DNA from: Microthrixaceae bacterium
GTDB taxonomy: Bacteria; Actinomycetota; Acidimicrobiia; Acidimicrobiales; Acidimicrobilacustridaceae
Assembly (NCBI GenBank): GCA_947449015.1
Contig: CANFQA010000008.1
Location: forward strand, 1-64,000
Length of the DNA: 64,000 nt
Reading direction: 5' to 3'
Shown in pieces: positions 46,007 to 62,110 of this stretch. The position numbers were made by a program, and so were the translations under genes. Each line of letters begins with the position of its first letter. Positions within the stretch are counted from its first letter, which is position 1. The notes beneath the pieces were generated by a model. It did no database searches, had not been told where the DNA came from, and worked only from the letters and a program-made list of their open reading frames with translations.

Positions 46007-47434
46007 TCACCCGAACGCGATACCGACGCTTGCCACGCTCACAACCGCGAACCCAGCAGTAAGCATGGTGGACCATCGACCGCGCAGCACCGCAGCGGCA
46101 GACGCGACCAGTGCGGGGACCGCCACCAATGCGTAGCGGAACGGAATATCCACATACACAGATTGAAAGCCGTAGTTGAACAACACGATCGCCGGACCAG
46201 CAATCGCAGCCACCCCCAACGATGCACAGGCCAGCGCTCTCTGGCGTGATCCTTTGGGGGACCGGACCATGGCCACGATGACCAGCCCGACGAGCAGCAC
46301 CGCCGCGAGACCTGAGGTGAGTATGACGAGATCGGTGCGCAGGAACGGCGGGAGATAAGGCCCGAAGAGCGGGTCGAATGTTTGTCGCCACGACCCGATG
46401 AACTGACTCATCGGAAAGCTGGTGACGGTGTAGCGCTGGGTCATCGGAATGTCAGCGCCCGGAACAGTTGCGATCGATTGGGCGACAACCTGCCAGACCC
46501 CAGACACCACAACGGCAACTGCGCTCGTCCAGAGAACCGGCAACAATCGCCGACTGTTCGAACCGCAAAATGCCCTCAGTCGCAAGATGACACCTGCCTG
46601 CGATGAAGGACCATCGTTGCGCGAGCCGCCGGAGGTGGAGGTGGAGGTCGAGGTCGAAGTCGAGGTCGAAGTGGATAGCGCTACTGACCTGATCGAGGAC
46701 CAATTGCAACGGAGAAGAAGGTAGAGCACGACCACCGCCACACCGATCAGGTTCGTGACCTTCGTGCCGGCACACAACGCTGATGCCGCGAGCACGACCC
46801 ACAACGGGAGTCGACCCCGCTCCCAGCGCACCACAGCCCAGACAAGAAGCGAACCGCAGAGCAGTGATGTCCCGTCGGTGTTGATGGTGGCGGCTGCCAA
46901 CAGCACGGTGGGCGTGCTTATCGTGATCGCGATGAGCGCCGACGCAAGGATTCGATTCGCTCCGAGTTCGCGCAGGAGCAGCCAAAGTGCACCCACTGCC
47001 GCCATCAACCACACCGCTCCTGCGGCGCGGCCGTTGGTGAGCGGATCGTCGGTCACGGGCAGTGTCGCAGCGATCGCTCGTGCAAGTAAACCGTCGATCG
47101 CGTAGTAGGTCGGCGGATGAATTGCCGCCGTGTTGAATCCACTTTCCTGGAACGTGGTCGGGTCGAGCTGAATCGTGGCATCGGTGACGCACGAGGGAAC
47201 CTTCGCGTCGAACTCCGCATCAAGACGGTGACAGGTTTCGAGTCGGAGCGATTTCTGTGTGAAGAGGTCTCCAAGCCCGACGAGATGCCCATCCCCTGCG
47301 CGGATCAGATAGTCGAGGTGCTGGAGCTCATCGACGGGTGAGACCTCGGTGTAGCTGTGTATGTGTCCGATCACCAGCCCAAAGGCCAGCAGCATGAGGG
47401 CCGCGACACAGATCGCGGATCGCAGACGACTCAT
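46007..47434 (-). CDS. Multi-spanning membrane protein, GT-C/DUF2142-like
   Basis: The 475-residue protein has about ten hydrophobic segments. The first external loop holds YTEVSPVDELQHLDYLIRAG, an acidic stretch like that of GT-C sugar transferases, and IHPPTYYAIDG. A Ser-Thr run (residues 254-268) interrupts a cytoplasmic or external loop. Function is inferred as polyprenyl-linked sugar transfer or related glycan chemistry. Its ATG overlaps the rmlA stop by 4 nt, tying it to dTDP-sugar synthesis. Confidence 0.72.
   Translation of the reverse strand: MSRLRSAICVAALMLLAFGLVIGHIHSYTEVSPVDELQHLDYLIRAGDGHLVGLGDLFTQKSLRLETCHRLDAEFDAKVPSCVTDATIQLDPTTFQESGFNTAAIHPPTYYAIDGLLARAIAATLPVTDDPLTNGRAAGAVWLMAAVGALWLLLRELGANRILASALIAITISTPTVLLAAATINTDGTSLLCGSLLVWAVVRWERGRLPLWVVLAASALCAGTKVTNLIGVAVVVLYLLLRCNWSSIRSVALSTSTSTSTSTSTSTSGGSRNDGPSSQAGVILRLRAFCGSNSRRLLPVLWTSAVAVVVSGVWQVVAQSIATVPGADIPMTQRYTVTSFPMSQFIGSWRQTFDPLFGPYLPPFLRTDLVILTSGLAAVLLVGLVIVAMVRSPKGSRQRALACASLGVAAIAGPAIVLFNYGFQSVYVDIPFRYALVAVPALVASAAAVLRGRWSTMLTAGFAVVSVASVGIAFG
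46631..46675. repeat. Hexanucleotide repeat tract encoding a Ser-Thr run
   Basis: About seven imperfect copies of a 6-bp unit (GAGGTG, GAGGTC or GAAGTC on the plus strand) encode fifteen alternating Ser and Thr residues on the minus strand. Unit changes keep the frame, so length variation would alter only a linker. Confidence 0.85.
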
Positions 47435-50970: not shown

Positions 50971-51041
50971 GCAAGCGCCGACCCGCTGGCACCTGCACCC
51001 AGGCCAGGACCTGGGCCCACCGAGGCCCAGCCCAGTGGCGA

Positions 51042-52211
51042 TTAGTGCCGATTATGAGGGGTGCAGAACTGGTCGTATTCGGCGATGATGATGTCCGCCG
51101 GATCGATGGAACAGGCCGGACAGTTGGGATCGCGGCGGATCCGGTAGGTCATGAACGACTGCTCGAGACTGTCATAGGCCATCAGACGGCCCGAAAGGGA
51201 ATCGCCCAATGAGAGCAGCAGTTTGATCGCCTCGAGGGCCTGAATCGACCCGATGATGCCAGGAAGAACGCCCAGAACTCCTGCTTCCGCACAGGACGGG
51301 GCCAGCTCGGGCGGGGGCGGTTCGGGCAAGAAGCAGCGGTAGCAGGGGCCGTCATGGGGAAGGAACACCGTGACCTGTCCCTCGAACCGGAAGATCGAAC
51401 CGTGCACAACGGGGGTGCCGGTGCGAAGCGACGCATCGTTGAGCAAATACCGGCTGGGAAAGTTGTCCGCCCCATCAACGACAAGGTCGTACTGCGACAG
51501 GAGCGCTTCGACGTTGGAGGCGTCGAGTCGCATGTCGTGGGTGTTGACCGTGACGTCAGGGTTAAGAAGTTGAAGCGTCTTGGCGGCGGAGTCGACCTTG
51601 CGCATCCCTACACGCTCGAGGTTGTGCACGATCTGACGCTGAAGGTTGGACTCATCGACGACATCCATATCAATAATTCCAATAGTGCCAACGCCCGCTG
51701 CTGCGAGATAGAGCGCAGCTGGGGAACCAAGCCCCCCAGCACCAAGAAGCAGCACCTTGGCATCGAGCAGTTTCAGCTGCCCCTCCTCCCCCACCTCGGG
51801 AAGCAGGAGATGACGCTGATACCGATTGCGCTGCTCGGCCGAGAGCGTGCGCGGCGCGCTCCATTCCCGGCCCTGGTCCTTCCAGCGATTGAACCCTCCG
51901 TCCATGGAGACCACATCGGTGTAACCCAACTCGGTGAGCGTCTTCGCCGCGAACGCGGAGCGCACGCCGCCGGCGCAGAAAACCACGACCGGCACGGACT
52001 TGTCGGGGATCCGGCTCTCCACCTGTGCCTCGAGGTGACCGCGGGGAATGTAGAGAGCCCCCGGAATGGCCCCCTGCTCGAACTCATCGGGTTCACGCAC
52101 GTCAAGGAACACCGTGTTGGGTTCGGCACTGCGCCGGGCATCGCCCTCGGCGGTATCAATCTCGCGGATCTGCGACTTCGTCTGCGATAGGAGATCTCGG
52201 AACGTGGCCAT
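51042..52211 (-). CDS. Rhodanese-MoeB/ThiF-type sulfur-carrier adenylyltransferase
   Basis: The 389-residue fusion has an N-terminal rhodanese domain (about 18-115) with the active loop VVFCAGGVRSAFA, then an E1-like domain: RYQRHLLLPEVGEEGQ, VLLLGAGGLGSPAALYL, DESNLQRQIVH, the SCAEAGVLGVLPG segment and zinc pairs CYRC and CPAC. It would adenylate the C-terminus of a small ubiquitin-like sulfur carrier and load sulfur for cysteine, thiamine or molybdopterin synthesis. In mycobacterial MoeZ the rhodanese domain is at the C-terminus, so domain order is reversed here. A palindrome lies 74-98 nt upstream. Confidence 0.93.
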   Translation of the reverse strand: MATFRDLLSQTKSQIREIDTAEGDARRSAEPNTVFLDVREPDEFEQGAIPGALYIPRGHLEAQVESRIPDKSVPVVVFCAGGVRSAFAAKTLTELGYTDVVSMDGGFNRWKDQGREWSAPRTLSAEQRNRYQRHLLLPEVGEEGQLKLLDAKVLLLGAGGLGSPAALYLAAAGVGTIGIIDMDVVDESNLQRQIVHNLERVGMRKVDSAAKTLQLLNPDVTVNTHDMRLDASNVEALLSQYDLVVDGADNFPSRYLLNDASLRTGTPVVHGSIFRFEGQVTVFLPHDGPCYRCFLPEPPPPELAPSCAEAGVLGVLPGIIGSIQALEAIKLLLSLGDSLSGRLMAYDSLEQSFMTYRIRRDPNCPACSIDPADIIIAEYDQFCTPHNRH

Positions 52212-52284
52212 GGGCTGCCTTTGGGGTGGGACTTCGGGAGGGGGGATGTCGGTCCGATATGACAGTCACCGACGTTCGGGGGTG

Positions 52285-52309
52285 AAACCCTACCTAGTAG
52301 GTCAGGTTT
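52285..52309. promoter_or_regulatory. 25-bp near-perfect palindrome, probable repressor site for the MoeB-like gene
   Basis: The left half is AAACCnnACCTA and the right half TAGGTnnGGTTT around a central G at 52297; 10 of 12 pairs are complementary. Minus-strand TAGGGT (52287-52292) inside it fits the -10 pattern, so a bound dimer would block the promoter of the gene starting at 52211. The binding protein is unknown; a sulfur- or redox-sensing regulator is a guess from the target. Confidence 0.6.
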
Positions 52310-52324
52310 TTGCCACCTGCGACC

Positions 52325-53104
52325 TCAGCAGCTGACGATGAGTGGCAACAGGTCTGATGCCGACCCTGCCAGCCGTACCGTCGCGAGGTGATCCATCGCG
52401 GTGGCCTGGGCGTTCACGATGATCACCGTCCGCCCCGACCGAGCTGCGAGCTCCACCATGCCAGCAACGGGATACACGCTGAGACTGGTGCCAACTGCCA
52501 GGAGCACCTCAGCCTCACGCGAAGCCCGTTCGGCCCGATCAAGATCAGCGGAGATCAACGACTGCCCGAACAGGATGGTTGCCGACTTCACGATGCCCCC
52601 GCAGATGAGACAGGCCGGATCAAGTTCGCCAGCCCGCACCCGACTGAGCGCATCCTCCATCGGACCGCGTGCACCACAGGCAACGCATTCCCACCGATGC
52701 ACCGTGCCATGGATCTCAACAAGCCGGTCTGCCGGCGTGCCCGCCGCAAGGTGCAGACCATCAATGTTCTGGGTCACCAACGTATGAAGACGATCACCAA
52801 GCCTGGTGATCGCGCGGTGGCCATCATTCGGCTCGGCTGTGAACATCTCCGAAGCTGCGCGAATACGCCACGCGTCGCGCCGAACCTGTGGGTCGCTCAG
52901 ATAGGTCGTGATGTTCGAACGTCGCTCCGCTGCGGGGTCGCGGGTCCAGACTCCATCGGGGCCCCGGAAGTCAGGGATACCCGAATCGGTGCTGATGCCG
53001 GCGCCAGTAAGAACAGCAACCGACGCAGCACCGGCAATCAGATCAGCAGCACCAGCGATCGCATCGTTGTGCTGCGCACTCGAGCCGGACTCGTCCAACA
53101 TCAT
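52325..53104 (-). CDS. Sir2-family NAD-dependent protein deacylase
   Basis: The 259-residue sirtuin has AVLTGAGISTDSGIPDFRG, LVTQNIDGLH, the catalytic His in EIHGTVHRWEC, four zinc cysteines in CVACG and CLICGG, and AVGTSLSVYPVAGM. It removes acyl groups from lysine using NAD. In actinobacteria such enzymes regulate acyl-CoA synthetases among others. ATG 53104 overlaps the DUF2304 stop by 4 nt, an unexpected coupling to a glycan-type module. Confidence 0.94.
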   Translation of the reverse strand: MMLDESGSSAQHNDAIAGAADLIAGAASVAVLTGAGISTDSGIPDFRGPDGVWTRDPAAERRSNITTYLSDPQVRRDAWRIRAASEMFTAEPNDGHRAITRLGDRLHTLVTQNIDGLHLAAGTPADRLVEIHGTVHRWECVACGARGPMEDALSRVRAGELDPACLICGGIVKSATILFGQSLISADLDRAERASREAEVLLAVGTSLSVYPVAGMVELAARSGRTVIIVNAQATAMDHLATVRLAGSASDLLPLIVSC

Positions 53105-53463
53105 TCCGGGTTCAATCCTTCAGTTTCATCACGCGATCCCTTCTCGACATCTCGCAACGCCAACTCCTGCGCAAGCTGTTCGACGCGGTGTTCGAGTCGG
53201 CTGACATGAACCGAGAGATTGACCGCAACGATCAAAAGGAACAAGCAGACCACCCCGAATACGAGGTTGCTTCCGTAGGAGACTCCGAGCGTCGTCGACA
53301 ACCGGTCAACGAGCGGGCGGGCAAGCCCCAGGATCACTCCAACGACGGCGACACTGATCCAGAGCAACGCATAACTCTCCGAAAGGCGTCGCCGACGAAC
53401 GATCTCAACGATGAACGCAAGCAACATGACCGCTGCCAGCAACAAAATGAGGCTCAACTTCAT
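53101..53463 (-). CDS. DUF2304 membrane protein
   Basis: The 120-residue protein has three hydrophobic segments (about 3-19, 31-48, 65-85) and a C-terminal coiled-coil-like stretch, VSRLEHRVEQLAQELALRD. The RRRRLSESYALLW segment is typical of DUF2304. The family often sits beside polyprenyl-phosphate sugar transferases and may anchor or regulate them. It begins 1 nt after the GT2 stop. A paralogue lies at 54990-55397. Confidence 0.85.
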   Translation of the reverse strand: MKLSLILLLAAVMLLAFIVEIVRRRRLSESYALLWISVAVVGVILGLARPLVDRLSTTLGVSYGSNLVFGVVCLFLLIVAVNLSVHVSRLEHRVEQLAQELALRDVEKGSRDETEGLNPE

Positions 53464-53464
53464 G

Positions 53465-54181
53465 TCAATGACCCTTCGACATCGGTCGGCGAGAACGCGA
53501 CAGTGCGATAACAAGCATGAGGCGCACGAAGTGATAGGAGCTGCGGATCAGATTGTTCGACGCAGTTCCCCCAAGACGTTCACGCATCGCCACCGGAACT
53601 TCCACAATGCGAAGGTCGTTTTCATGGGCAATGAGCAGAGACTCAACAGTGTCCGAAAGGTAGGCACTCGGATACTGAAGCGCGAACAATTCGATCGCGC
53701 TTCGGCTAAATGCTCGGAAACCACTGGTGGTATCGGTGAGCGGCTGGCCGATTCTTCGAGAAAGAATGCGCGAGAGCATCCGCATGCTCAAGCGTCGACT
53801 CGAGGAAACCCGATAGTCCCCTGAGCCTTGGGCGAATCGAGTTCCGACAGCGAGATCGGCACCAGATCGAACAGCCTCGATCAGCTTTGCCGCCTCATTC
53901 GGATCATGCTGACCATCGGCGTCGATCTGCATTGCGATGTCGTAGGCGCCGGAATCAGCGAACCTGAACCCAGTGCGCAAAGCCGCCCCGACTCCCAGAT
54001 TAAAAGGATGATGGACCACCTTCGCGCCAGCAGATCGAGCAACAGCCATGGTGTGATCGCTTGACCCGTCATCGACGACCAGCACCTCGACATCGGGAAG
54101 TGCCCGGATCCCGGCGACCACTGCGGCGACAGTCTCCTGTTCGTTCAAAGCCGGAACGATGACGATCACACGGGTCCGCAC
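53465..54181 (-). CDS. GT2 glycosyltransferase, polyprenyl-phosphate sugar synthase-like
   Basis: The 238-residue protein has VIVIVPALNEQETVAAVV, EVLVVDDGSSDHTMAVA, NLGVGAALRTGFRFA, MQIDADGQHDPNE and the DTTSGFRAFSRSAIELF segment of dolichyl-phosphate mannose synthase-like enzymes. There is no C-terminal membrane domain. It would charge a polyprenyl phosphate with a sugar, the donor for GT-C enzymes such as those at 21655 and 46007. It is divergent from a close paralogue. GTG 54181 follows TAGGCT by 9 nt. Confidence 0.9.
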   Translation of the reverse strand: MRTRVIVIVPALNEQETVAAVVAGIRALPDVEVLVVDDGSSDHTMAVARSAGAKVVHHPFNLGVGAALRTGFRFADSGAYDIAMQIDADGQHDPNEAAKLIEAVRSGADLAVGTRFAQGSGDYRVSSSRRLSMRMLSRILSRRIGQPLTDTTSGFRAFSRSAIELFALQYPSAYLSDTVESLLIAHENDLRIVEVPVAMRERLGGTASNNLIRSSYHFVRLMLVIALSRSRRPMSKGH

Positions 54182-58615: not shown

Positions 58616-61600
58616 ATGAGCAGTTTCCTCGACGCAGCCCGCGAACGTGTCGTCATCTTCGATGGTGGCATGGGCACCGGCATCCAGTTGCGAGAGCTCA
58701 CGGCAGATGATTTCGGTGGCGAGGAACTCGAGGGGTGCAACGAACTGCTTGCGGTGACCAGGCCCGATGTGATCGGCGAGTTACATGCGGCATATCTCGA
58801 AGTCGGCTGCGAGGTCATCGAAACCGACACGTTCGGCGCCTTCGCCATTCCGCTTGGCGAATACGGGATCGCCGAGCGGACCCATGAACTCAATGTGGCT
58901 GCGGCTCGTCTTGCCAAGGATGTGGCATCGAGTTACGCCACGCCCGATCGGCCGCGATGGGTAGCTGGATCTATTGGACCGGGCACCAAGTTCCCATCGC
59001 TGGGGCAGATCCGATACGCAGAGTTACGCGATCACTATGAGCTGCAGAGCCATGGCCTGCTCACTGGCGGCGTAGACCTCATCATCATCGAAACCATGTT
59101 CGACCTGCTCACCGTGAAGGCCGCAATGAACGGCGCCAGGCGCGCCATGCGTTCGCTCGGTATCGATGTGCCATTGCAGGTGCAGGTCACGATGGAACTC
59201 ACCGGACGCATGCTCCCGGGCACCGAGATCGCTGCGGCGCTCGCCGCTATCGATCCGCTGCGCCCCGATGTCATCGGCATCAACTGCGCAACCGGTCCGG
59301 TCGAGATGGGTGAGCATCTGCGTCATCTCGCCGCGCATGCCCGCATGCCGATCTCCTGCATTCCTAATGCCGGCCTGCCCAGCGTGGTCGACGGCCACAT
59401 GCATTACGACCTCACCCCCGACCAGCTCGCCGAGCACCACGCACGATTCATCACCGAACTCGGCGTCAACATCGTCGGTGGATGCTGCGGAACGACGCCA
59501 GAGCATTTGGCTGCCGTCGTGGAGCGCTGCCGCGATCTCACCCCGGCGCCACGCACTCCGGTGCATGAAGCAGGTGCAACCTCGATTTACTCGCTCGTGC
59601 CGTTTGAGCAGGACACCTCGTTCATGATCATCGGCGAACGCACCAACGCCAACGGTTCGAAGAAGTTCCGTGATTCCATGCTTGAGGGCGATCTCGATAC
59701 CTGTGTTCAGATGGCTAAGGATCAGGTCAAGGAAGGTGCCCATGTCCTCGATCTCTGCGTCGACTACGTCGGCCGCGACGGCACCGACGACATGGACGCC
59801 ATCGCCCAGCTGTTCGCAACCCAGTCGAGTGTTCCGCTCGTTCTTGACTCCACCGAGCCGCAGGTACTCGAAGCCGGACTTTCTTGGCTCGGGGGACGCG
59901 CCATTCTCAACTCGGCCAACCTCGAGGACGGCGACCATGACGGCAGCCGCCTCGATCGCGTGATGAAACTGGCCAAGGAGTACGGGGCAGCAGTGATCTG
60001 TCTGTTGATCGATGAGGAGGGTCAAGCCCGTGACATCGAATGGAAACTGCGCATCGCCCATCGCATCCATGACCTCGCCGTCAATCGCTACGGCCTCGAG
60101 CCAAGCGATCTCATCTTCGATGCTCTGACATTCCCGCTTTCCACTGGCGACGACGACCTGCGCGGCGATGCCATCGCCACGATCGAGGCCATCCGTCGCA
60201 TCAAGAGCGAGATGCCCGGTGTGTTCACCACACTCGGAGTTTCCAATGTGTCGTTCGGCCTCAAGCCCGCCGCGCGCCATGTGCTCAATTCCGTATTCCT
60301 GCACGAGTGCGTGCAGGCCGGACTCGACTCCGCCATCGTGCATGCGGCGCGAATCATGCCCCTCAATCGTGTCCCCGATGAGCAGCGGCAAGTCTGCCTG
60401 GACCTCATTTACGACCGTCGTCGCGATGGCTACGACCCGCTCACCACGCTGCTCGACGTGTTCGCCGATGTGCAGGCAACCGAGGTTGAGCAGGAGGACC
60501 GCAGCGACTGGAGCATCGAACAACTCCTCAGCCAACGCATCATCGACGGTGACCGGGAAGATCTCGACCTCGCTCTCGACGAGGCGATGTCCAGCGGAAT
60601 CGAGCCGCTCATCATCATCAATGACATCCTGCTGGCCGGCATGAAGGTCGTGGGCGATCTCTTCGCCACTGGCGAGATGCAGCTCCCATTCGTTCTGCAG
60701 TCGGCAGAAACGATGAAGATGGCTGTCGCCCACCTTGAACAATTCATGGAGAAGTCCGATACCGGCGGCAAGGGACGCATTGTTCTGGCCACCGTCAAGG
60801 GCGACGTCCACGACATTGGCAAGAACCTCGTCGACATCATCCTCACCAACAACGGCTACGAGGTACACAACATCGGCATCAAGATCTCCATTGCGGAGAT
60901 GATCGAAAAGGCCATCGAAGTGAAGGCCGACGCCATCGGCATGAGCGGTCTGCTGGTGAAGTCCACACTCATTATGCGCGACAACCTCCAAGAGTTGAAT
61001 GCTCGCGGGCTTGCCGACATCCCAGTACTGCTTGGCGGCGCCGCGCTCACCCGTAGTTACGTCGAGCGCGACCTACGCGAGGTCTACGAGGGTCGTCTCT
61101 TCTACGGCAAAGACGCCTTCGAGGGCCTACGGGTCATGGATCGCCTCGGTGATATCAAGCGAGGCACTGAACCTGATGATGCCGACTGGGGTCGAGTTCC
61201 AAGCGAAAGCCGAGTGCCGGCCCGGTCTGGTTCCCGAGATGTCGAAACGCCATCTGCTCCCCTGCCGGCTCGCTCGCCAGAGGTGGCACTCGACAATCGC
61301 GTCTTCACGCCACCATTCCTTGGCTCCCAGGTGATCAAAGGCATCGCCATTGACGACATCGCCGCCTACATCAACGAGACCGCGCTATTCCGCAACCAGT
61401 GGCAGTTCCGCCCGGAAAAGAATTCCGACGGATCAGTGGAATCCGATGAGGGGTTCAAGGACCGCATCCGTTCCATCCTGCGCTCACAACTCGCTGAGGC
61501 CAAAGCAAGCGACATGCTGATCCCGCAGGTGGTCTATGGATATTTCCCGGCGAATAGCGACGGAACCGATCTCGTCATTTGGACCGACGACACGCGCACA

Positions 61601-62110
61601 ACCGAGCGCATGCGCTTCAGCTACCCACGCCAACATGAAGCACCGCACCTGTGCATTGCTGATTTTTTTCGGCCTGTTGGATCGGCCGAGCCTGATTATG
61701 CGGCGTTCCACATTGTCACCATGGGTCAGCGAGTCAGCGATCTGGCCGCCGACCTCTTCGCCCAGAACCGCTACCAGGAGTACCTGTTGGTGCATGGCTT
61801 GGGTGTCGAGATGGCCGAAGCGCTGGCCGAGTACTGGCACCATCGTGTCCGTACCGAATGGGGTTACGTGGATGAAGACGGCCCCTCACTCGCTGGCCTC
61901 TTCCGTCAGCAGTACCGCGGCGGACGCTACTCCTGGGGCTATCCGGCCTGTCCTGATCTCGAGGACAACATGGCAGTTGCTGCATTGCTCGATGCCGGAC
62001 GTATTGGCATCAACGTCAATGAAGACACCGGATTCCAGTACCAACCAGAGCAGACCACCTCGGCGCTCATCTGCCATCACCCACAGGCGAAGTACTTCAT
62101 CGCTCGCTGA
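58616..62110 (+). CDS. metH: Cobalamin-dependent methionine synthase
   Basis: The 1164-residue protein has all MetH modules in order: homocysteine domain with GINCATGP and GGCCGTTPEH (zinc Cys), pterin domain with IIGERTNANGSKKF, the B12 cap, the B12 domain with DVHDIGKNLVDIIL (cobalt-ligand His near 732), and the AdoMet reactivation domain (about 900-1164) ending YFPANSDGTD, VHGLGVEMAEALAEYWH and RRGYSWGYPACP-like residues. A Ser/Pro/Arg linker (about 849-890) joins the last two. It transfers methyl from methyltetrahydrofolate to homocysteine. Start and ribosome site are clear. Confidence 0.97.
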   Translation: MSSFLDAARERVVIFDGGMGTGIQLRELTADDFGGEELEGCNELLAVTRPDVIGELHAAYLEVGCEVIETDTFGAFAIPLGEYGIAERTHELNVAAARLAKDVASSYATPDRPRWVAGSIGPGTKFPSLGQIRYAELRDHYELQSHGLLTGGVDLIIIETMFDLLTVKAAMNGARRAMRSLGIDVPLQVQVTMELTGRMLPGTEIAAALAAIDPLRPDVIGINCATGPVEMGEHLRHLAAHARMPISCIPNAGLPSVVDGHMHYDLTPDQLAEHHARFITELGVNIVGGCCGTTPEHLAAVVERCRDLTPAPRTPVHEAGATSIYSLVPFEQDTSFMIIGERTNANGSKKFRDSMLEGDLDTCVQMAKDQVKEGAHVLDLCVDYVGRDGTDDMDAIAQLFATQSSVPLVLDSTEPQVLEAGLSWLGGRAILNSANLEDGDHDGSRLDRVMKLAKEYGAAVICLLIDEEGQARDIEWKLRIAHRIHDLAVNRYGLEPSDLIFDALTFPLSTGDDDLRGDAIATIEAIRRIKSEMPGVFTTLGVSNVSFGLKPAARHVLNSVFLHECVQAGLDSAIVHAARIMPLNRVPDEQRQVCLDLIYDRRRDGYDPLTTLLDVFADVQATEVEQEDRSDWSIEQLLSQRIIDGDREDLDLALDEAMSSGIEPLIIINDILLAGMKVVGDLFATGEMQLPFVLQSAETMKMAVAHLEQFMEKSDTGGKGRIVLATVKGDVHDIGKNLVDIILTNNGYEVHNIGIKISIAEMIEKAIEVKADAIGMSGLLVKSTLIMRDNLQELNARGLADIPVLLGGAALTRSYVERDLREVYEGRLFYGKDAFEGLRVMDRLGDIKRGTEPDDADWGRVPSESRVPARSGSRDVETPSAPLPARSPEVALDNRVFTPPFLGSQVIKGIAIDDIAAYINETALFRNQWQFRPEKNSDGSVESDEGFKDRIRSILRSQLAEAKASDMLIPQVVYGYFPANSDGTDLVIWTDDTRTTERMRFSYPRQHEAPHLCIADFFRPVGSAEPDYAAFHIVTMGQRVSDLAADLFAQNRYQEYLLVHGLGVEMAEALAEYWHHRVRTEWGYVDEDGPSLAGLFRQQYRGGRYSWGYPACPDLEDNMAVAALLDAGRIGINVNEDTGFQYQPEQTTSALICHHPQAKYFIAR

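Follow-up and report, generated by a model that had tools for sequence, protein, structure and literature searches.

A conserved palindrome over the moeBR promoter, putative operator of a sulfur-assimilation regulon in Acidimicrobiales with a candidate Rrf2 regulator

Does the palindrome in front of a rhodanese-MoeB gene (moeBR) of a Microthrixaceae bacterium serve as an operator, and if so, which genes would it control and which protein would bind it? The locus was analysed within a contig stretch of 64,000 nucleotides (GCA_947449015.1, contig CANFQA010000008.1, positions 1 to 64,000), here called the window. The initial annotation had described an odd palindrome of 25 bp with 10 of 12 matching pairs and a TAGGGT resembling a -10 hexamer inside, and this was confirmed in the letters at 52285-52309: the plus strand reads AAACCCTACCTAGTAGGTCAGGTTT with one central base, the minus strand from 52309 to 52285 reads AAACCTGACCTACTAGGTAGGGTTT with a central C and 10 of 12 pairs matching around it. 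Between the site and the ATG of the rhodanese-MoeB gene are 73 bases, and 15 bases separate it from the stop codon of the preceding Sir2-family gene. The features of the locus are:

52285..52309, minus strand: putative operator of 25 bp, AAACCTGACCTACTAGGTAGGGTTT, conserved in 30 of 30 orthologs
52287..52292, minus strand: TAGGGT, predicted -10 hexamer of the rhodanese-MoeB promoter within the right arm of the operator (T, A and final T of TAnnnT the same in all 26 distinct sites)
51042..52211, minus strand: moeBR, predicted regulated gene, 389 aa, N-terminal rhodanese and ThiF/MoeB adenylyltransferase (NF006444 above cut-off; PF00899, PF00581)
52325..53104, minus strand: Sir2-family protein gene (PF02146), upstream of moeBR on the same strand

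On symmetry alone the palindrome is unremarkable. Counting palindromes in which 10 or more of the 12 pairs match, the window contains seven odd ones of 25 bp and six even ones, each group including one with 11 pairs, while the means of 20 Markov-1 simulations of the window were 4.95 and 4.75. The rank of strongest operator-like site in the window, given to it initially, was therefore not upheld by symmetry; the significance of the site lies in its conservation. A gene for a cobalamin-dependent methionine synthase, metH, was read by eye at 58616-62110 of the window, and the relaxed operator pattern had no match upstream of it. A predicted open reading frame at 46007-47434 contains a run of Ser-Thr repeats (STSTSTSTSTSTST), which points to short tandemly repeated DNA there.

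Conservation was computed for the orthologous promoters. Sixty-one genomes were searched for moeBR and 54 orthologs were judged, 30 fetched first, 20 more and four from a second genome scan; no full ortholog was present in G003, G009, G013, G028 and G032, and G001 and G007 held fragments of the gene, both with the site. All 30 first-fetched orthologs (proteins 77-100% identical) carried the site upstream, 27 by the pattern GACC-N5-GGTA and three by a looser reading. The pattern matched in 13 of the 20 further orthologs; a diverged version was visible by eye in six of the other seven, and none in G052. Invariant in 26 distinct moeBR sites were GAC, GT, the TA and final T of TAnnnT, and TTT, whereas the middle three bases of the hexamer varied (GGG, GGA, GCA, ATA, AGA and others). 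A fixed TAnnnT with variable middle bases is as expected for a -10 hexamer and supports the overlap of the palindrome with the rhodanese-MoeB promoter, noted from the single sequence. In five loci (L008, L025, L029, L030, L032) fewer than 10 bases lie between the end of the site and the ATG of moeBR, which fits leaderless transcripts. Of the named loci, i.e., the best 80 moeBR matches among those listed, 57 of 67 relatives and two of 13 outgroup loci had a site that scored above every one of 200 shuffles; the split was made by record titles and identity, with L372, titled Acidobacteria and without the site, among the 67, and some of the 80 are contigs already among the genomes and hence not independent. 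The relatives include Acidithrix ferrooxidans, Ferrithrix and Ilumatobacter, and it was from these record titles that the order was assigned as Acidimicrobiales; the isolate A. ferrooxidans carries the moeBR site. Phylogenetic footprinting, proposed as a check in the initial annotation, was positive in all three sets of promoters. Sites upstream of moeB in L382 (titled Deltaproteobacteria) and L387 (titled Planctomycetota) also exceeded all 200 shuffles; they may be due to chance, independent origin or transferred genes. Three contigs titled Bifidobacterium breve (L310, L334, L385) have a moeBR 60-89% identical to the window protein, and their titles look wrong.

The site is shared with other genes. 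A symmetric 25-bp form, AAWSYYGACYnnnnnRGTCRRSWTT, recurs at cysD/cysQ, sir, cysH, cysM, cysO, metY, the gene for 1-Cys peroxiredoxin (prx) and others. Genomes were scanned with a strict, symmetric and IscR-like pattern, AWNYYGACYNNNNNRGTNRRNWT, allowing no mismatch, and with the reversed pattern as control. Twenty-one genomes of the genus yielded 71 rows against two for the control, with matches in 20 genomes; eighteen genomes from other genera and families gave 58 rows against two, with matches in 16. Among 111 distinct strict sites in genomes of the order, 82 were at sulfur-related genes, 24 elsewhere and five unclassified, on a list of sulfur genes that was drawn up after the contexts had been read and includes folD, DUF4395, a carbonic-anhydrase-like protein and TauE. 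By tblastn, with at most 200 bp between the site and the start of the sulfur-related gene, 80 of the 111 were assigned to a listed gene (34/48, 29/36 and 17/27 in the three sets); two extra moeBR sites (G055, G298 C18) were assigned by coordinates. The 80 cases comprise moeBR (26), metY (13), prx (9), sir (6), cysM (6), cysD/cysQ (5), cysO (4), DUF4395 (4), TauE (2) and one each of cysH, tauD, metK, folD and the carbonic-anhydrase-like gene, so that 54 belong to genes other than moeBR. The 24 sites elsewhere include a G031 site (L134) beside a DUF4395/thioredoxin-like pair that was missed by tblastn, and some of them are recurrent.

Many gene names of these contexts were read by eye, with representatives confirmed by family search: O-acetylhomoserine sulfhydrylase, a CysK/CysM-family synthase, CysD, CysN, CysQ, CysH and 1-Cys peroxiredoxin. 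The sir representative was NirA/sulfite-reductase-like, below the curated cut-offs. A ThiS/MoaD-like protein was taken as CysO and a JAB-family protein as Mec; the roles of CysO, CysM and Mec are presumably those of the mycobacterial pathway, by analogy with which they were assigned. Genome comparison, with this computed target set, gives good support to the operator and to a sulfur regulon, and the initial suggestion of an undescribed sulfur-related regulon gains support. In a sample of 248 genomes of the phylum, at least one strict match was present in 131 (e.g., 10 rows in G276), and nine of the 29 genomes of the order had none. Two sites outside the order were inspected (L276, L277), neither of them at a recognisable sulfur-related gene.

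In the genome of the window, strict sites were found at moeBR (C8:52285), metY (C15:23315) and the 1-Cys peroxiredoxin gene (C36:15055). A site between mec and cysM (C14:50750) has two mismatches to an earlier related pattern, and the relaxed pattern added sites between cysD and cysQ (C76:2998) and at the beginning of the siroheme synthase gene cysG (C76:2152). The corresponding cysG site in the relative G012 lies at the head of a series of genes, the last of which are sir and cysH. A genome scan with the half-site pattern had been proposed initially, and it was positive: related sites were recovered at metY, prx, cysM, cysD/cysQ and cysG, while the exact pattern derived from the first sequence, ACCNNACCTANTAGGTNNGGT, matched the 52285 site alone and had no second copy. 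With up to three mismatches, the totals on each strand were three for ACCNNACCTANTAGGTNNGGT and 14 for its control; this result alone would have suggested a single-copy site, and the IscR-like form was needed to find the others. The pattern AWNYYGACCNNNNNGGTAGGNTTT with up to three mismatches gave 19 rows against 12 for the control, with useful leads only at zero to two mismatches. A matrix built from the moeBR sites scored cysM with 26.3, metY with 13.1 and prx with 14.7, compared to 30.9-47.2 for the moeBR sites, and had no match before either Rrf2 gene of this genome.

The position of the operator in the promoters, which were read by eye, varies with the gene. The -10 is covered at moeBR and also in two of the four cysO and three of the four DUF4395 promoters, whereas the -35 is covered at metY (TTGATT-N17-TAGGCT in the genome of the window) and at sir (TTGACC-N17-TACGGT in L136); at cysM the left arm enters a TAGAAT or TACAAT -10 in six of six sites. 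Some promoters have more than one copy: two strict operators precede sir in L131, and a second copy is visible by eye ahead of sir in L136 and L115 as well as ahead of the two TauE genes. Positions so varied on the core promoter are more in keeping with repression than with activation, and from the overlap with -10 and -35 elements we infer that binding probably represses. At moeBR, where the -10 hexamer is inside the right arm, a bound dimer would block RNA polymerase. For comparison, one Pseudomonas iscR site is described as located between -35 and -10 (PMC6599224, in excerpt).

The architecture of the operator points to the Rrf2 family. The consensus of the IscR Type-1 operator, ATASYYGACTRWWWYAGTCRRSTAT (PMC6599224, in excerpt), likewise has 25 bp, the same spacer and an identical SYYGAC / GTCRRS core. 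The pooled consensus given above, from 42 sites and biased by the search pattern, agrees with it in core and spacing and differs at positions 2 and 24; the window site matches it in 17 of 25 positions, the cysD site of the same genome in 20 of 25. Two Rrf2 genes are encoded in this genome, a C7-type (C7:81317-81808) and a C27-type (C27:17277-17732). The C7-type protein belongs to the Rrf2 family (PF02082, 132.8 bits against a cut-off of 30; TIGR00738, 115.3 against 73.3), and its closest solved relatives among the matches listed were 4cic, IscR and CymR. Its computed distribution follows the order: an ortholog at E below 1e-60 was present in 28 of the 29 order genomes of the phylum sample, G076, a member of the class, had a match with E 2e-48, and the other matches listed were at most 45% identical. 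Eight of the nine order genomes devoid of a strict operator match nonetheless carry a C7-type Rrf2. The recognition helix LPQPYLEQILLALKGAG is identical in 31 of 31 C7-type sequences, the motif PHx4C[DE]HEGQC is likewise present in 31 of 31, and G267 has HDGQC.

In a comparison of 24 genomes (G226, lacking a moeBR ortholog, was left out) 13 of 16 with a C7-type Rrf2 and none of eight without it had a moeBR site above all 200 shuffles, a co-occurrence confounded by descent since the genomes without it are mostly from outside the order; in G220 the moeB hit was only 50% identical and may not be an ortholog. Of the remaining three C7-type genomes, two have a weaker moeBR site and G130 has none. 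The C7-type protein was the only Rrf2 found in G002, G017, G030, G035, G036 and G057, each of which has a moeBR site, and in G267, with sites at moeBR, sir, metY and folD/prx. Taken from such sequence comparisons, the C7-type Rrf2 is the probable binder of the operator.

The C7-type protein has features of IscR and of CymR, and differs from both. It keeps Glu43-Gln44 of IscR (as YLEQ) and the positions of Cys98 and Cys104; of the IscR cluster ligands C92, C98, C104 and H107 (PMC5411485, in excerpt) it lacks an equivalent of Cys92 and His107 by alignment, and it scores 101.7 bits in TIGR02010, below the cut-off of 207.55. The targets, too, are different, being genes of sulfate assimilation and cysteine synthesis with no isc or suf gene seen among them. 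CymR of Bacillus and Staphylococcus is an Rrf2 protein with a cysteine and sulfur regulon (PMC9338935, in excerpt), and the B. subtilis CymR structure 2y75 was matched by phmmer with E 5.5e-18. The genes at the present operator likewise make up a cysteine and sulfur regulon, whose tie to the C7-type protein is a probable one. The score in NF047409 was 86.2 bits, below the cut-off of 195. B. subtilis CymR is described in the excerpt of PMC9338935 as having no cluster and as requiring a complex with CysK (O-acetylserine thiol-lyase) for DNA binding, whereas the C7-type has a conserved H/C/H/C stretch. A Rhodococcus Rrf2 protein, IGTS8_peg394, is actinobacterial as well and is annotated as regulator of sulfate adenylyltransferase; the likeness is one of description, and the excerpt of PMC8557817 describes no operator or regulon for it.

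Another Rrf2 protein could control the same sulfur regulon, either the C27-type or the type encoded beside cysD-cysN in other genomes of the genus. The C27-type gene adjoins a Ssu/Tau-like ABC operon (substrate-binding protein PF13379, ATPase, permease) in the genome of the window, this type or a sister form accompanies the metY, prx and cysM sites in six genus genomes (G000, G003, G004, G010, G011, G012), and the Rhodococcus annotation (PMC8557817, in excerpt) points in the same direction; G013 has yet another Rrf2 type together with prx and tauD sites. We consider this improbable, as seven operator-bearing genomes have the C7-type as the only Rrf2 found, and the C27-type has the recognition helix AKFVENTL instead of YLEQ and lacks the cysteines. 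The three cysD loci with their own Rrf2 are without the strict palindrome, a weak argument because in two of them, L404 and L410, cysD is closely preceded by a diverged match on a single strand (TTTCGACAGGATTGGTAGACAA). They form one genus branch and are possibly a replacement module with its own regulator:

L403, 2073-5480: cysD-cysN with an adjacent Rrf2 gene
L404, 2321-5649: cysD-cysN with an adjacent Rrf2 gene
L410, 2469-5761: cysD-cysN with an adjacent Rrf2 gene

About equally improbable is a regulator from outside the Rrf2 family, e.g., of the TetR, LysR or ROK type as in Corynebacterium. In other actinobacteria McbR and CysR are among the regulators of sulfur metabolism (PMC2580772, in excerpt), and no autoregulatory site was tied to the C7-type Rrf2 gene: at 30 C7-type loci the relaxed pattern had no match in 29 and one single-strand match inside a neighbouring gene in L180, and no sulfur gene was recognised beside the Rrf2 gene. 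The length of 25 bp, the 5-bp spacer and the YYGACY/RGTCRR core, in agreement with the IscR Type-1 consensus, argue against it. That the moeBR block is a promoter and nothing else, for instance of an ECF/SigR-type sigma factor with incidental symmetry, is highly improbable. In Streptomyces moeB is a target of SigR, whose consensus is GGAAT-N18/19-GTT, and in many genera GGAA is found near the -35 and is followed by GTT. The base preceding TTT varies, however (G in 18, A in 6, C in 1 and T in 1 of the 26 sites), in contrast to the constant T, A and T of TAnnnT, GGAA is lost in the window and in L006, and the symmetric form is present at other genes at differing distances. A terminator hairpin of the Sir2 gene was rejected as scarcely conceivable, even though the palindrome begins 15 bases past the Sir2 stop: on the strand of Sir2 and moeBR the RNA fold z-score was -0.75, no better than shuffles, the one terminator-like match at the site is on the opposite (plus) strand with none on the same strand, and the motif recurs before other genes and between the divergent cysD and cysQ. 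An RNA element was also rejected, since an Rfam search of 51000-53500 gave no match.

We consider it likely that the palindrome serves as operator for a repressor of sulfur assimilation conserved across much of the Acidimicrobiales, with the C7-type Rrf2 homodimer as the most likely protein to bind AAWSYYGACYnnnnnRGTCRRSWTT. As signal for keeping the regulon off we infer plentiful sulfur, which may be perceived as cysteine, sulfide or an Fe-S cluster. Under sulfur shortage the protein would release the DNA, and ATP sulfurylase, PAPS reductase and siroheme/sulfite reductase would be made, together with the CysO-CysM-MoeBR cysteine route, O-acetylhomoserine sulfhydrylase and 1-Cys peroxiredoxin. 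The set of operator-bearing genes differs from genome to genome. More tentatively, and with somewhat less than even chances, the C7-type proteins may be an undescribed, order-wide Rrf2 subfamily that senses Fe-S clusters or sulfide via the His/Cys/His/Cys stretch and represses the whole route of sulfur supply, including the CysO-thiocarboxylate cysteine pathway, from an IscR Type-1-like operator. PHx4CxHEGQC would then replace the Cys3His of IscR, and an IscR-type switch would have been rewired from Fe-S assembly to sulfur assimilation.

With the operator, its targets and a candidate protein, a predicted regulon of sulfur assimilation is obtained for the Acidimicrobiales, here mostly metagenome-assembled genomes. 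If true, an IscR-like operator governs sulfate assimilation and cysteine synthesis, the task of CymR in Firmicutes, which bears on the moves of Rrf2 regulators between iron-sulfur and sulfur control. Rrf2 sulfur regulons are known as a kind, and no earlier description of this control system was found in the open-access literature: among the matches listed there was no regulon of this kind, no paper on Acidimicrobi- together with Rrf2 and none on Rv1287 with Rrf2.

Two further palindromes were observed in genomes of the genus. A fully symmetric AAGCCGACCCAAAGGGTCGGCTT is located between a LysR regulator gene and a gene for a beta-keto acid cleavage enzyme (BKACE) in five genomes, with the same half-sites and no obvious link to sulfur. 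In four genomes the final part of an esterase-like gene harbours a near-perfect copy of the palindrome, which precedes an aldo/keto reductase (AKR) gene by about 73 bp. Their positions are:

L098, 2686-2708: LysR/BKACE palindrome
L085, 2055-2077: LysR/BKACE palindrome
L082, 749-771: LysR/BKACE palindrome
L101, 2914-2936: LysR/BKACE palindrome
L096, 2685-2707: esterase/AKR palindrome copy
L063, 1501-1523: esterase/AKR palindrome copy
L086, 2304-2326: esterase/AKR palindrome copy
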